DNA of 35,448 nucleotides from a virus: the IMG/VR virus record IMGVR_UViG_3300021371_000051, positions 1 to 35,448 of that record; one strand, 5' to 3'. Every line of letters starts with the position of its first letter. Position 1 is the stretch's first letter. The position numbers and the translations under genes are program-made. The notes below the pieces were generated by a model, which was not told where the DNA came from, did no database searches, and saw only the letters and a list, made by a program, of their open reading frames with translations. Shown here piece after piece: positions 13,033 to 33,576 of this stretch.

Positions 13033-13246
13033 TAAGCTCTCCCTTTTTAAATACAATACGAACACAATATTTGCGAATAATTGCAACAAGTGTAAATACT
13101 GTTGTTTGAATAATAGAGGTTGTTAACAAGCTGGCATTAAAATAATTGCACATGTTAAGAACAAAAAAAGATAAAGGCAAAGCTATTACCACACCAACAG
13201 CTACATCGCTGAGACTTTCTCTTAAAGCCAGCCTATCAATCTTCAT
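13025..13246 (-). CDS. Small two-helix membrane protein (DUF7220-like)
   Basis: A 73-residue protein starting at the ATG 13246, overlapping the end of the primase gene by 11 bases. Two hydrophobic segments are clear: residues about 12-33 (VAVGVVIALPLSFFVLNMC) and about 40-59 (LTTSIIQTTVFTLVAIIRKY), followed by a basic end. The RESLSDVAVG...IIRKYCVR pattern matches a widespread phage family of unknown function that I associate with DUF7220. With no holin gene next to the lysozyme, it could be considered as a holin, but it lies in the replication operon, which argues against that. Confidence 0.66.
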   Translation of the reverse strand: MKIDRLALRESLSDVAVGVVIALPLSFFVLNMCNYFNASLLTTSIIQTTVFTLVAIIRKYCVRIVFKKGELNG

Positions 13247-15359
13247 TGAAAAATTCTGGATCAATCGCAACAATACGTTTGGTTGGCCGTCCAGTTCCTT
13301 TTGCTCTTAAATCTTTTTCTTGTATCTCCCCTGAGTTTTTTAATCTTTCGATAATTTCTTTTACTTCGTATGACTTCATTGATCTAAATATTTCACGTCT
13401 ATCAATATCACGTTTGCTTATACCCCATTCTCCTTGCGATCTAATAAAGCTAAGTATTTGTTTAATACGCCCTTCCATTTCAGAACCTGCAACTTTATCT
13501 TTACAGCTTTCAATTAACACTTGATCGTAGTAATAAACATAATCAATAGCCCATTGAGTAATATCGCCTTTAATAGTTTTGGCTTTGCGATCATCTGCCA
13601 AGGCTCCAATCAAAGCTAGTCGCATAGCCTTTTCTCTTGTTCTTGATAACAAAACTTCTAAACCTTCTTTCTCTAAAGCATTTTGTTGGTCCACTAATCT
13701 GTAAGCCAAACTATCAAGCAAAGCATTTGAATCATCGTCAAACTTCAGCACTCTTTGTTTAAAATCTAGCTCAGCATTGTCTCTAGATATTTGCTCCATT
13801 TCATTGTCAACCTGTCTTACATGCGAAACCCAATCGTAGGTCGATTGCGGAGGCTCAACAAAAGAAACCATTTTGCCAACGGTTCTTGGCACGTGAGACT
13901 CAACGACAATAAATCTATTTAAGAAACCGTCTACAATACGACCTGTTGATAAAGCACCATAAAAGTTTTTAGGCACACTCATACCGACCAAGGTAATCGC
14001 AGGTTTAATCGTTGACCTATCCAACACTTCTTTTTGTTGTTTGTTGGTTAGAGTCATCATTGAATAATTATCTGGTCTTAAAACACCATGACATCTTCCC
14101 CAAGTCTCCATAAGTATTTGTAATGCGTCTTCTTTGTTTGAGTTAGAAGATTTAGATATGCTTTCTAATCTTTTACCAAACTCATCCATTACAGTTATGT
14201 GGGTTGGTTTATATCTAAGTAAACTATAAATAGCACCACTTGATGTATAGCCGTCTCCTGCCATTAAATCGCTGTACTCTGCATGATCTAAAATAGTTTC
14301 AATAACCGTCTTAACATTTTCTTTGCCTTGCCCAGACTTAGCGATACACATAAAAAATAAAGACGCAAAGTTATTCATATTGGTTCTATACATTCTGCCC
14401 AAGGCTACTGAACCCAAAGACAAAGCTGCTTGCATGCTGATAGCTGGTTGAGATATATGCGCTATCTGTTCAGAGTATTCGTAGATATCTTTTAATACCC
14501 CTGGAGGAGAGAAAAGATTGACAGGCTCATTTACATTCTTGGTTGTTGATATATAAGCTGGAGCTTGTTGGTTTTTTCTGTCATGAGTTTTTTGTATTGA
14601 ATTAACTGTTGTAGATATTTCACTTGCTGATAAGGGAGGGGTATTTTGTTCGTTCCAAGACTGAACAAAAAACTCTGTAAACTCTGTATTTAAACCTTTA
14701 GCTATTAAATAGCCAGCTAATCTAGCGGCTTGGTCATTTCTACCACCTTCTGATATACCATCGATAGATAAAGGCGCAGCTATTGGTTTGCCGTTAACCT
14801 TTTCAACTCCAGTTATTTTTACCCATAACTCTTGAGTTAGATTTGGCAAGTCATCAATATCGTTTAGATCCCAATCATCAATTCTTGTAGGGGTATAGAT
14901 AGCACCTGTTGCATGAATATTATGCGGAGCAACAATCAAACCCCCGACACCCCTAATATCAATTAGCTTGGCTGGGTCATAGCCTTCAGTTCTTTTGGCT
15001 ACCCAAGTAGTAAAGTTTTCTGGATTGTTGTAATAGTAATGAACCCCTTTTCCTGTCGCTACTTTAAAAGGTGTTACTGGTAAGTTGGCCTCACACCAAT
15101 TTACCGCTTCAGGTGTATCTGCATCTATAACAATAAACTTGCCACAGACTAAAGCGACGACTAAATCATCTCGCCCTTTAAACCATTTCTCTATTTCTTC
15201 CGTCGTCGGCTGTCGCTCTTGGAATTTTTGCCACCCCCCTAATTCTTTGGGCGGAACTTTATTATGTCTATGGAGTGGTACTACACTTATTCCATATTCT
15301 GCATAAGCCAGAGCTAAGTCCAACGCAGAGTCTTGCGCTGTTACTTGTAAATTGAACAC
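13236..15359 (-). CDS. Primase-polymerase / helicase fusion (AEP Prim-Pol, PriCT, DUF3987-type ATPase)
   Basis: A 707-residue replication protein. Residues about 10-175 form an archaeo-eukaryotic-type primase-polymerase: D79-x-D81 (VIDADT), H107 in GKGVHYYY and D134 (IDIRG). Residues about 205-262 resemble the primase C-terminal PriCT domain (GRNDQAARLAGYLIAKG). The ATPase part has a Walker A-like loop (A340-K-S-G-Q-G-K346) and Walker B D392-E393 (ITVMDEFGK), as in DUF3987 phage replicative helicases. Residues about 640-700 look like a winged helix. It should unwind and prime phage DNA, and could recruit host polymerase. The start is GTG, two bases after the HTH gene, so it is probably translationally coupled. 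No separate DNA polymerase is seen in the window. Confidence 0.88.
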   Translation of the reverse strand: MFNLQVTAQDSALDLALAYAEYGISVVPLHRHNKVPPKELGGWQKFQERQPTTEEIEKWFKGRDDLVVALVCGKFIVIDADTPEAVNWCEANLPVTPFKVATGKGVHYYYNNPENFTTWVAKRTEGYDPAKLIDIRGVGGLIVAPHNIHATGAIYTPTRIDDWDLNDIDDLPNLTQELWVKITGVEKVNGKPIAAPLSIDGISEGGRNDQAARLAGYLIAKGLNTEFTEFFVQSWNEQNTPPLSASEISTTVNSIQKTHDRKNQQAPAYISTTKNVNEPVNLFSPPGVLKDIYEYSEQIAHISQPAISMQAALSLGSVALGRMYRTNMNNFASLFFMCIAKSGQGKENVKTVIETILDHAEYSDLMAGDGYTSSGAIYSLLRYKPTHITVMDEFGKRLESISKSSNSNKEDALQILMETWGRCHGVLRPDNYSMMTLTNKQQKEVLDRSTIKPAITLVGMSVPKNFYGALSTGRIVDGFLNRFIVVESHVPRTVGKMVSFVEPPQSTYDWVSHVRQVDNEMEQISRDNAELDFKQRVLKFDDDSNALLDSLAYRLVDQQNALEKEGLEVLLSRTREKAMRLALIGALADDRKAKTIKGDITQWAIDYVYYYDQVLIESCKDKVAGSEMEGRIKQILSFIRSQGEWGISKRDIDRREIFRSMKSYEVKEIIERLKNSGEIQEKDLRAKGTGRPTKRIVAIDPEFFNED

Positions 15360-15361
15360 TC

Positions 15362-15697
15362 TTAACTTTCACTACTTTCTTCAATAGGACCAAAGATAGA
15401 CTCGAAGTCTAGCTTACCGCCAGATGCTTTAATAATTTTTTTAGCTTGTTTAATTGAAGGTTGTCTTAAACCATACCTCCAAGCTTTGGTTGATGCTGCT
15501 GAGCAGTCAAATAATTCTGCCGCAGGCTCTGTTCCAATAAATTCTATATACTTTTTTAAAGTTATTCTTTGCACTTCCCTCTCCTTATGTTCAGGTTCTA
15601 GATTTTTCTGTTTAAATGATTTAAGCTCTTCATTGGTTAGGTTTTTCAACCTCCAGAGATAATTCACTCTCCATTGATTTTGGTCTACTTCTCTCAT
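15362..15697 (-). CDS. HTH DNA-binding regulator (Cro/YdaS-like)
   Basis: A 111-residue protein when started at ATG 15697 (an alternative GTG is at 15727). Residues about 45-105 form a helix-turn-helix of the Cro/XRE or YdaS kind: LKKYIEFIGTEPAAELFDCSAASTKAWRYGLRQPS, given here as its start (LKKYIEF) and its recognition part (CSAASTKAWRYG). The N-terminal 40 residues are basic and helical. It is first in the minus operon and next to a divergent promoter region with two perfect short palindromes, so autoregulation and control of the Sak4 operon are likely. Which promoter it represses cannot be told from sequence. Confidence 0.72.
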   Translation of the reverse strand: MREVDQNQWRVNYLWRLKNLTNEELKSFKQKNLEPEHKEREVQRITLKKYIEFIGTEPAAELFDCSAASTKAWRYGLRQPSIKQAKKIIKASGGKLDFESIFGPIEESSES

Positions 15698-15708
15698 TTT
15701 ACATTCCG

Positions 15709-15732
15709 TTAAATATTTAATGTTCACACATT
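15709..15732. promoter_or_regulatory. Candidate operator: two adjacent palindromes
   Basis: TTAAATATTTAA (15709-15720) is a perfect 12-base palindrome and AATGT-TCAC-ACATT (15719-15732) is an inverted repeat with 5-base arms. They lie just upstream of the HTH gene and next to the predicted promoter of the divergent operon, the usual place for an autoregulated phage operator. AT-rich palindromes arise easily by chance, so this is a candidate only. Confidence 0.4.
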
Positions 15733-15759
15733 GTAATTCATATTAAAATAAATTAAAAT
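15731..15759 (+). promoter_or_regulatory. Sigma70-like promoter for the Sak4/SSB operon
   Basis: TTGTAA (15731-15736), a 17-base spacer and TAAAAT (15754-15759) match the bacterial consensus at 4/6 and 5/6 positions. The start codon follows at 15790 with the RBS ACGGAGAAG. The -35 overlaps the AATGTTCACACATT inverted repeat, so binding there should block this promoter. Confidence 0.5.
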
Positions 15760-15789
15760 AGTATTTTTAAATAAAACGGAGAAGATTAA

Positions 15790-23047: not shown

Positions 23048-23323
23048 ATGAAGATAGTAAAAATGGAAAAAGGCCCACCCACCATCGAAGAAGGTCGACG
23101 CAGACTCGATACCCTCTTTGAAGATTTTATTTCTAGAGGAGCTGACGCAGAGTTTGTTGCCTTACTTATCTTTACTTACGGCGTAACTGAAACTCTCAAT
23201 TACGCGCAATCGGTCGAAGAAGGCGTGAGAAAAATAGATGATATACTCAACGCAGAGTTTGGCCTAGAAAAAGAAATCGTTTTTACCCCCGAGTTCTTAA
23301 CAGAAGAAAAAGATCCCGAATAG
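23048..23323 (+). CDS. Hypothetical acidic protein (91 aa)
   Basis: An alpha-helical acidic protein (RRRLDTLFEDFISRGADAEF, VEEGVRKIDDILNAEFGLE). No RBS is visible at the first ATG. It is the last gene before the repeat-rich noncoding region at 23324-23665. Family not recognised. Confidence 0.55.
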   Translation: MKIVKMEKGPPTIEEGRRRLDTLFEDFISRGADAEFVALLIFTYGVTETLNYAQSVEEGVRKIDDILNAEFGLEKEIVFTPEFLTEEKDPE

Positions 23324-23653
23324 TTTTGTCACACTTTTCTGACAAAAGTACCCCCTTTTGGGTCGATTTTGGCTATATTTGGCTTAGTTTTGTCAGAGTG
23401 TCAGAAGTATCTGACAGCTAAAAACGTGATAAGAATGCACTTTAGGCGTTTTGTCATATTGTCAGGATACCCTTAAAATAACCCTCATATTTACCTCATA
23501 ATCGTAAAAGAAAAGGGTAGGTAAAGAAAAGTATGACAAAAGTATATATATAGGTATAAATATAATAATATATATATAATTATTTATTGTATTAGTAGTA
23601 CTTAGAGAGGTATTGATAGTTTTGTCAGAGTTTTGTCAAGAGCTCTGACAAAA
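23321..23653. repeat. TTTTGTCA iteron-like array in a 340-base gene-free region (candidate origin or operator cluster)
   Basis: Eight perfect copies of TTTTGTCA or its complement occur between the stop at 23323 and the start at 23666: 23324, 23388, 23449, 23620 and 23631 (+), 23340, 23534 and 23646 (-). Three are TAGTTTTGTCA and three TGACAAAAGTA. Partial TGTCA/TGACA copies lie at 23399, 23411 and 23459. Copies 23324/23340 and 23631/23646 form inverted repeats. An AT-only tract of about 50 bases (23541-23590) sits between clusters, like a DNA-unwinding element. This looks like a replication origin or a multi-site operator; the region is otherwise free of genes. Confidence 0.8.
23451..23479 (+). 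promoter_or_regulatory. Sigma70-like promoter inside the repeat array
   Basis: TTGTCA (23451-23456), spacer of 17, TAAAAT (23474-23479); each hexamer matches the consensus at 5/6. It uses part of one TTTTGTCA repeat as its -35, so a protein binding the repeats would block it. It would drive the small gene at 23666 and terS. Confidence 0.5.
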
Positions 23654-23665
23654 GTAGGAGAAGAT

Positions 23666-23836
23666 ATGTATAAATTAGTAAAAAAATGTCGGGAGGTTTT
23701 GCCTCAAGAAGTTATAGATTTGCTTGAAAGACCAGATGTAGTAGAATTAGTCAGGTATTTTAACGGACGATTAATTAGCTATAAGGTGAGAGATGAGCAA
23801 GGACGAATCGAGGATCAGACAGAAAGTGAAGATTGA
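23666..23836 (+). CDS. Hypothetical protein (56 aa)
   Basis: The ATG at 23666 follows TAGGAGAAG; an upstream in-frame start at 23633 would lie in the repeat array. The product is helical and charged (KCREVLPQEVIDLLERPDVV, ELVRYFNGRLISYKV). The gene overlaps terS by 44 bases. Being directly next to the array it may be a repeat-associated partner, but no DNA-binding motif is visible. Confidence 0.58.
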   Translation: MYKLVKKCREVLPQEVIDLLERPDVVELVRYFNGRLISYKVRDEQGRIEDQTESED

Positions 23837-24461
23837 ACCTACACTTGCAGATGCAGAAGATATGCCTGTTGAGTATATGAATCATAACGAAAAGAATCTA
23901 ACCAAGCGACAGCGTTTGTTAGTCTGGAATGCAGTCAACGATCCTACTCTTACTTTTGCAGAAGCGGCTAAGAAGGCAGGCTTTAAGAATCCAAAGGTTG
24001 TTAGTCGGTATATGGGGCCCAACGGGAAGTATCAGCACGTGTATAGAGAATATGAAAGATTGATGGCGGAAGCGAAAAAGAAGTTTGAGCTTACGCATGA
24101 TAACGCAGTCGAGGATTTGTATAAGCTGAGGGATGACGCCTGGAGTGCAGGTAATTTTACAGCGGCGATTAACGCGCAGAATTTACTTTTGAAAGTCGGG
24201 GGCCTTATTGTTGATAGGCGGGAAGTCTTGCATGGGAAAGTAGATCAAATGAGTCGGGGTGAGGTAGAAAGACGTCTTGCTGATTTACTCGGGAAGCAAG
24301 CTATAGAACATAAATCGGGAGTCGAGATTGAAGATAAATCGGGATTCAAAGATAAATCGGGATCTGAAGAAATCGGGGAGATTATCAAAGAAGAGGTTGT
24401 TAAGAAATCTAGTAGGGCTAGACCTATACCAGAGGAAGGGGAGAAAGAGGACGAAGATTAG
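23793..24461 (+). CDS. terS: Terminase small subunit (TerS)
   Basis: A 222-residue protein. Residues about 36-75 have a HTH-like pattern (LTKRQRLLVWNAV, FAEAAKKAGFKNP); residues about 95-165 form helices with VEDLYKLRDDAWSAGNFTAAINAQN and VDQMSRGEVERRLADLL, as in phage small terminases that oligomerise and recognise the packaging site. It normally pairs with TerL, here found 7.7 kb away at 32116. The C-terminal tail is charged and has a repeated K-S-G with a 6-residue period whose DNA contains AAATCGGG four times. The start at 23793 overlaps the previous gene. Confidence 0.8.
   Translation: MSKDESRIRQKVKIEPTLADAEDMPVEYMNHNEKNLTKRQRLLVWNAVNDPTLTFAEAAKKAGFKNPKVVSRYMGPNGKYQHVYREYERLMAEAKKKFELTHDNAVEDLYKLRDDAWSAGNFTAAINAQNLLLKVGGLIVDRREVLHGKVDQMSRGEVERRLADLLGKQAIEHKSGVEIEDKSGFKDKSGSEEIGEIIKEEVVKKSSRARPIPEEGEKEDED
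24310..24378 (+). repeat. Four AAATCGGG repeats inside terS, candidate pac/TerS-binding array
   Basis: ATAAATCGGGA occurs at 24310, 24334 and 24352, with AAATCGGGG at 24370. The last three are 18 bases apart. In protein they give H/D-K-S-G repeats. Pac sites lie inside terS in several headful phages, which makes this a reasonable candidate. Repeats in a disordered coding tail are an alternative. Confidence 0.5.
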
Positions 24462-32115: not shown

Positions 32116-33576
32116 ATGGATTTTTCCAAACTTACAGAGGCTGAACTCAAAGAAGCCCTGCTGCTTTTAGAAAAGCAAGACGGTTACTCAACGCAAGATG
32201 AGTGTCAAGAATCTTTTTTGAGTTACGTCAACCACATGTGGCCAGAATTTGTCTGCGGTCGTCATCATCAGATATTTGCCGAAAAGCTAGAACAAGTTGC
32301 TAAGGGTGAGATCAATCGTTTGATTGTTAACATGCCGCCTCGACATACTAAGTCTGAGTTTGCCTCGACCTTCTTTCCGTCTTGGGTGATGGGACTCAAA
32401 CCGAAAATGAAAATAATGGAGACGACCCATACGGGTGAACTCGCCGTTAGGTTCGGTCGTAAAGTGCGTAACTTGATGGATCAAAAAGAATACAAACAAG
32501 TTTTTCCCGACGTCAGTTTGCAGGCTGATAATAAATCAGCAGGGCGTTGGGAAACAAATAAGGGTGGAGAGTATTTTGCAGCGGGTGTGGGTGGTGCTGT
32601 AACTGGTCGGGGTGCGGATCTACTAATCATCGACGATCCGCATTCTGAACAGGATGCACTTTCGCCAAATGCGTTAGAGTCTGCCTACGAGTGGTACACC
32701 TCTGGACCTCGCCAGCGTTTGCAACCTAAAGGTGCAATTGTAATAGTGATGACGCGTTGGTCTTCGATTGACTTGACAGCCAAGTTGCTAGAAGCGCAGA
32801 AAGAACCTTTGGCTGACCAATGGGAAGTAATAGAGTTCCCTGCTATTTTCCCAGATACTGAAAAGCCTCTTTGGCCCGAGTATTGGGCGTTAGAAGAATT
32901 GCAAAAAGTTAAAGCGTCTTTGCCTGGAATGAAGTGGAATGCTCAATGGATGCAAACGCCGACCGCTGAAGAGGGGTCAATTATCAAACGCGACTGGTGG
33001 CAAAGATGGAAACATGATTCTTTACCCTCCGTTCAATATATTATGCAGTCTTACGATACAGCGTTTTCTAAAAAAGAAACGGCTGACTTCTCGGCCATCT
33101 CAACTTGGGGTGTATTTAGACCCAGCGAAGATTCGCCCGATTGCGTCATATTACTGGATTGTCAAAAAGGCAGGTGGGACTTCCCTGAACTCAAAGAAAT
33201 AGCCATGCGCGAGTATCAATACTGGGAAACCGATATGGTGTTGATTGAAGCCAAAGCAAGTGGTACGCCACTCACCCATGAACTTAGAAGAATGGGCATA
33301 CCTGTGGTAAATTATTCGCCGACCAGAGGCCATGATAAAACAACTAGAATGCACTCGGTTGCTCCTATCTTTGAATCTGGTATGGTGTATGCCCCGAACA
33401 TGGCATTTGCCGAAGATATGATTGAAGAATGTGCATCATTTCCGTTTGGAGCTCACGATGATTTATGTGATACTATGACTCAAGCGTTGATGCGATTCCG
33501 CGAAGGCGGTTTTGTAAACTTAGATAGTGATTACGAGGACGAAGAACGCGAACCTAGACAGAGAGTTTATTACTGA
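32116..33576 (+). CDS. terL: Terminase large subunit (TerL)
   Basis: A 486-residue packaging motor and nuclease. ATPase: Walker A-like P74-P-R-H-T-K-S80 and Walker B LLIID173-D174; a coupling TRW motif is at 213-215. RNase H-like nuclease: D314 (SYDTAFSK), E378 (LIEAKASG) and D448/D449/D452 (AHDDLCDT). Order, spacing and length match full-length phage TerL. It uses ATP to move DNA into the prohead and cuts the concatemer. It is followed by the portal gene with a one-base overlap. TerS is 7.7 kb upstream. Confidence 0.95.
   Translation: MDFSKLTEAELKEALLLLEKQDGYSTQDECQESFLSYVNHMWPEFVCGRHHQIFAEKLEQVAKGEINRLIVNMPPRHTKSEFASTFFPSWVMGLKPKMKIMETTHTGELAVRFGRKVRNLMDQKEYKQVFPDVSLQADNKSAGRWETNKGGEYFAAGVGGAVTGRGADLLIIDDPHSEQDALSPNALESAYEWYTSGPRQRLQPKGAIVIVMTRWSSIDLTAKLLEAQKEPLADQWEVIEFPAIFPDTEKPLWPEYWALEELQKVKASLPGMKWNAQWMQTPTAEEGSIIKRDWWQRWKHDSLPSVQYIMQSYDTAFSKKETADFSAISTWGVFRPSEDSPDCVILLDCQKGRWDFPELKEIAMREYQYWETDMVLIEAKASGTPLTHELRRMGIPVVNYSPTRGHDKTTRMHSVAPIFESGMVYAPNMAFAEDMIEECASFPFGAHDDLCDTMTQALMRFREGGFVNLDSDYEDEEREPRQRVYY

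Follow-up and report, generated by a model that had tools for sequence, protein, structure and literature searches.

A conserved octamer array upstream of a small-terminase-like gene in uncultured marine phages, a candidate packaging-initiation site

In the window analyzed here, a 35,448-base viral contig from IMG/VR whose ends are open, eight exact copies of the octamer TTTTGTCA are packed upstream of a gene for a small terminase (TerS)-like protein. Comparison of sequences gives good support to the view that this array is a real, conserved, multi-site platform for protein binding. The reading that fits best, to which we would give a probability of about 45%, is a pac site, at which TerS would bind to initiate headful packaging. 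The earlier note on this DNA, which offered a replication origin or a multi-site operator, had listed TerS as a possible binder but had named no packaging site. Array-bearing relatives reach 53 kb, and the window is thus a fragment.

All eight copies lie within 23324-23653, and there is no ninth in the 35,448 bases, a length for which the chance mean is 3.1. Five are on the plus strand (R1, TAGTTTTGTCA, 23324..23331; R3, TAGTTTTGTCAGA, 23388..23395; R4, 23449..23456; R6, TAGTTTTGTCAGA, 23620..23627; R7, 23631..23638) and three on the minus strand (R2, TGACAAAAGTA, 23340..23347; R5, TATGACAAAAGTA, 23534..23541; R8, TGACAAAAGTA, 23646..23653). In none of 20,000 sequences made by dinucleotide shuffling of the 342-base gap did TTTTGTCA occur more than twice, and none of 3,000 shuffles held any octamer more than four times. 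The clustering is confirmed as real and far from chance; the earlier note had asked whether shuffled gaps of this composition might yield eight copies as readily, a number that was never approached. R1 and R2 form an inverted pair with a gap of 8 bases and R7 and R8 another with a gap of 7, whereas R7 stands 11 bp from R6 in a direct pair with a gap of 3. Additional TGTCA half-sites lie at 23399, 23412 (inverted), and 23460. The earlier description of eight perfect words, five direct and three inverted, in a gene-free stretch, with inverted pairs 7-8 bases apart, close direct pairs, and partial copies, is therefore borne out. Its 50-base AT-only tract, on the other hand, shrinks to 34 bases (23555-23588), the longest such run in the window, which sits between R5 and R6 in a 68-base stretch that is 85% AT.

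The first two half-sites make up a conserved TGTCA-N8-TGACA pair (23399..23416) that has identical geometry in phages with a second type of TerS (type 2, described below), and the conserved 21-bp non-repeat element GCTAAAAACGTGATAAGAATG (23417..23437, plus strand) is also common to those phages. The third half-site (23460-23464) follows R4, and several relatives have a full copy there. Upstream, a 91-aa ORF (23048..23323, plus strand), with homologues at the same place in relatives, stops right before R1. Downstream, R8 ends ∼12 bp before the start of a weakly conserved 56-aa ORF without a family match (23666..23836, plus strand), which lies between the array and the 222-aa TerS-like ORF (23793..24461, plus strand). 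Within the region coding for the C terminus of the TerS-like protein there are also three 18-base direct repeats (24307-24366), which encode DKSG-type repeats, and relatives have comparable clusters close to TerS.

Of 80 loci gathered with the 222-aa ORF as query, all those that extend far enough upstream have 7-11 copies at this position; loci truncated within the array have fewer, and copies elsewhere are scattered. The array lies upstream of the TerS-like gene in 89 distinct upstream sequences, in which the octamer columns are 99% identical, versus 76% (clade A) and 69% (clade B) for the spacers and 66-77% for the neighboring coding sequence. The check in related genomes that the earlier note had proposed thus finds the array preserved. 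The consensus box across relatives is TAGTTTTGTCAGA. There are two main layouts, with the terminal R6-R7-R8 trio (+11+15−) inverted in clade B. The R5-R6 interval is AT-rich in relatives as well (mean 76%, versus 58% in other long intervals). The array outranks every other local repeat cluster in two of three long contigs (50-53 kb), and in the third it is equaled only by clusters in probably coding sequence. The carriers form a family of uncultured marine bacteriophages. A DNA search for the array among isolate phages gave no matches, and a TTTTGTCA cluster is absent from the Prim-Pol-bearing isolates C7, H40/1, pCB2051-A, CRP-901/902, the Vibrio phages, and Mcat11. No clear octamer array precedes TerS in HTVC027P, 023Pt_psg01, or DSL-LC04. 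A weak parallel is seen in the cultured pelagiphage HTVC023P, where five copies of CTAGGAAA occupy ∼90 bp just before the annotated TerS (L197, 5776-5867). Our literature searches found no earlier description of the repeat.

The spacing of the boxes appears to be constrained as well. Homologous intervals take the values 48/57-59/69, 64/74/85-86, 78/86-88, and 73-74/84-85 bp among relatives, and the steps between them average 10.5 bp, or one helical turn. Were five steps drawn independently and uniformly from the range 5.25-15.75 bp, all would lie within 1 bp of 10.5 with a probability of ∼0.0002, a figure that is indicative and not a formal test, as neighboring spacing values were grouped by hand and some steps are off by the full 1 bp. 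The pattern suggests a need for the boxes to face the same side of the helix and points to a multi-site nucleoprotein platform assembled on that side.

Which protein reads this platform is best approached through phages that have exchanged parts. A search with a divergent Prim-Pol, 56% identical to that of the window, returned 80 loci, and where TerS is visible in them it is of type 2, 46-53% identical to the window's type-1 protein, and accompanied by one to three copies of TTTTGTCA. All type-1 loci that include the region have at least seven copies and all type-2 loci at most three, many of the loci being repeat fetches of one contig. The earlier note had held that relatives with the same gene order and no repeats would refute its proposal; this is half the case, in that type-2 phages share the gene order and have so few copies yet retain a shorter TGTCA cluster, with three to six TGTCA cores upstream of TerS. 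Most also retain, ahead of GCTAAAAACRTGATAAGAATG, the TGTCA-N8-TGACA pair in exact or closely similar form. From these shared features, the type-1 and type-2 sites are likely forms of one ancestral element, and a protein that reads TGTCA alone could use both. Five type-2 phages (L301, L315, L326, L343, and L359) have, in addition, an inverted repeat of the ATACTTGA/TCAAGTAT type and a CACTTTA-GGG-TAAAGTG-type hairpin, together some 110-50 bp before TerS.

Several contigs combine the two types. L295 (the same as L106) has the full eight-copy array and is 99.8% identical in DNA to the type-1 phage L220 over its first 3 kb. Its replication genes are 99.2% identical in DNA, and its Prim-Pol 100% identical in protein, to those of L301, a type-2 phage whose TerS is 49% identical to that of the window and whose shorter TGTCA cluster holds one TTTTGTCA. 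The two parts of L295 (1-2983 and 2918-7432) look like the product of recombination between phages, in which a replication module was joined to the array and TerS of the other type, with 99% identity on each side. L102 shares this junction at 95% identity and carries a type-1 TerS, which makes an assembly chimera unlikely, and L126, from another metagenome, joins the array and a type-1 TerS to type-2 replication DNA at 99.4%. The same replication proteins thus occur with either type of site. Across these contigs, the type of array tracks the type of the neighboring TerS and not the Prim-Pol or HTH gene. Because the array adjoins TerS, however, joint inheritance would be expected from linkage alone, whatever binds.

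These observations are what a pac site would lead one to expect, namely a site at or next to the TerS gene whose type is inherited with TerS type across module swaps, although linkage could yield the latter. At every type-1 TerS locus that includes the region, there is an array of at least seven copies, and beyond it only scattered ones; against a pac site, four unrelated TGACA arrays adjoin primase/helicase genes. The TerS-like protein is one of three candidate binders with conserved putative DNA-binding parts, the others being Prim-Pol and a small HTH protein, and is the one we favor. Homologues of its gene (∼33%) carry the annotation TerS in pelagiphages HTVC027P and HTVC023P, and its profile weakly matches the Pam5 small terminase (E 0.009). 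It has no Pfam match, and the best match to its low-confidence model (mean 57), the phage protein 2ao9, is not significant (E 1.4). Its HTH-like N-terminal region is nearly invariant among array-bearing phages.

If TerS is the binder, as we infer, several subunits would bind TTTTGTCA boxes kept in helical phase, wrap the 330-bp stretch across the flexible AT-rich interval, and bring in the large terminase (32116-33576) to make the concatemer's first cut, with headful packaging to follow. As R8 ends so close to the start of the 56-aa ORF, binding may also autoregulate the TerS transcript. A more specific version seems doubtful to us: that the pac site consists of one invariant octamer, helically phased and in both orientations, that a TerS ring wraps its 330 bp, and that it passes from phage to phage together with TerS, as a cassette separate from the replication module. 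If that version were true, TGTCA-core arrays could be a shared code, used for packaging here and for replication in other families. A cos site was dropped on an indirect test, as contigs run through the array and their ends are scattered. No single fixed end position occurs near the array, which disfavors cleavage at a cos site there and weighs neither for nor against pac; the diffuse ends could also be explained by a variable region.

A replication origin is possible, if on the whole unlikely. Here the boxes would be initiator sites, like DnaA boxes of mixed orientation, the AT-rich interval would unwind, and the predicted C-terminal winged helix of the Prim-Pol/DUF3987 protein (13236..15359, minus strand), or another replication protein, would bind and load. 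The mixed orientations and the position of the window's longest AT-only run between clusters are what such a multi-box, AT-rich origin would have. All array contigs of sufficient length to judge contain Prim-Pol; among the long array contigs searched, almost all have both Prim-Pol and the HTH protein, and the others are truncated. The C-terminal Prim-Pol segment FRSMKSYEVKEIIERLKN does not vary among array-bearing phages, even where overall identity falls to 56%, and is modeled, with low confidence (model mean 41), as a helix-helix-helix-strand-strand winged helix; fold comparison of the low-confidence TerS and Prim-Pol models returned nothing significant. Moreover, four unrelated contigs have dense TGACA/TTTTGTCA arrays adjoining replication genes: Prim-Pol in L103 (2694-3010), for which no relatives were found, Prim-Pol plus D5 in L163 (3647-4062), AAA_25 in L171 (695-1014), and a TOPRIM-AAA_25 helicase in L090 (6760-6880).

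In the window, however, 8 kb separate the array from the Prim-Pol gene, and isolates with related Prim-Pol lack the array. Identical Prim-Pol and HTH proteins accompany both the eight-copy array and the TGTCA cluster with a single TTTTGTCA, even if TGTCA cores persist in the latter. The GC-skew check proposed in the earlier note gave no origin signature, as coding-strand skew is uniform (∼0.12-0.16) on both sides and both strands, with no switch at the array; in phages this test carries little weight. Pseudoalteromonas phages C7 and H40/1 have four copies of CTTTTTAC near the Prim-Pol gene (L198, ∼25591; L199, ∼24630), which may be origin repeats of their own.

A multi-site operator seems unlikely. 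In this case, the HTH protein (15362..15727, minus strand), TerS, or a neighboring protein would repress or activate the 56-aa/TerS operon by cooperative, looped binding. Helical phasing would suit looping, R6-R8 end ∼12 bp before the next start codon, and the HTH protein has a weak match to a PHROG transcriptional repressor family. One TTTTGTCA copy does overlap the −35 of a σ70-like promoter, TTGTCA-17-TAAAAT (23451-23479), as the earlier note had reported, but promoter-like matches are at the shuffled level (3 versus 2.8), and the element is not conserved in relatives, its second hexamer included. The promoter region of the HTH gene itself (15728-15789) has no TTTTGTCA site, the same HTH protein, encoded in an identical replication module, is found both in phages that have the array and in phages that lack it, and 8-11 sites over 330 bp are many for a single operator. 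What stands of the original proposal of an origin or operator is a conserved multi-site binding element; neither function is established, and the array follows TerS type and shows no skew switch.

Use of the TGTCA boxes by a host or other phage protein for partition, recombination, DNA bending, or the like is very improbable. Although TTTTGTCA pairs do lie by integrase genes in some unrelated contigs, the subset of window proteins that was scanned yielded no recognizable integrase or partition gene, and 82 of 89 arrays have no match to the strict IHF consensus, for which reason an IHF site was also set aside. Sparser TTTTGTCA repeats, possibly arm-type sites, occur near tyrosine-integrase or integrase-like genes in L120, L158, L168, L137, and L096.

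Returning to the packaging site, how TerS chooses phage DNA is an unsettled question, partly because model pac sites are weak in sequence specificity. The natural variants described here, with 7-11 copies, an inverted trio, helical-turn steps, and swapped TerS types, make the matching of site to protein, and wrapping, directly testable. The array also marks uncultured marine phages whose terminase relates them to the pelagiphages.

The array resembles several known systems in part. Like DnaA-box and iteron origins, it combines multiple short boxes with an AT-rich stretch; unlike them, it has no adjacent initiator gene or skew switch and is not tied to the type of replication module. In phage λ, the R-sites of cosB bind TerS and lie in both orientations upstream of the TerS gene, as the boxes do here, but they number about three and accompany a fixed cos cut, whereas no fixed contig end is seen in our phages. 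In the P1 pac site, by the small-terminase gene, a short word recurs several times in two groups and is a methylatable hexamer inside the TerS gene; our octamer is likewise a short word repeated beside a small-terminase gene, but it contains no GATC and lies in a gap, not inside TerS. Another analogy is to SPP1 and SF6. The pac repeats of SPP1 are located at the start of the TerS gene (PMC4737164), and both systems share with ours repeat boxes at the promoter and start of the TerS gene, a TerS or, here, TerS-like protein of HTH type, and flexible DNA (PMC4737164). There, the repeats are three sets of direct repeats, and the TerS DNA-binding domain, as measured for SF6, shows little specificity for them, so that they may matter little for TerS binding (PMC4737164). 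The array described here, in contrast, consists of one invariant octamer in both orientations, keeps helical phase, and lies wholly upstream of TerS.
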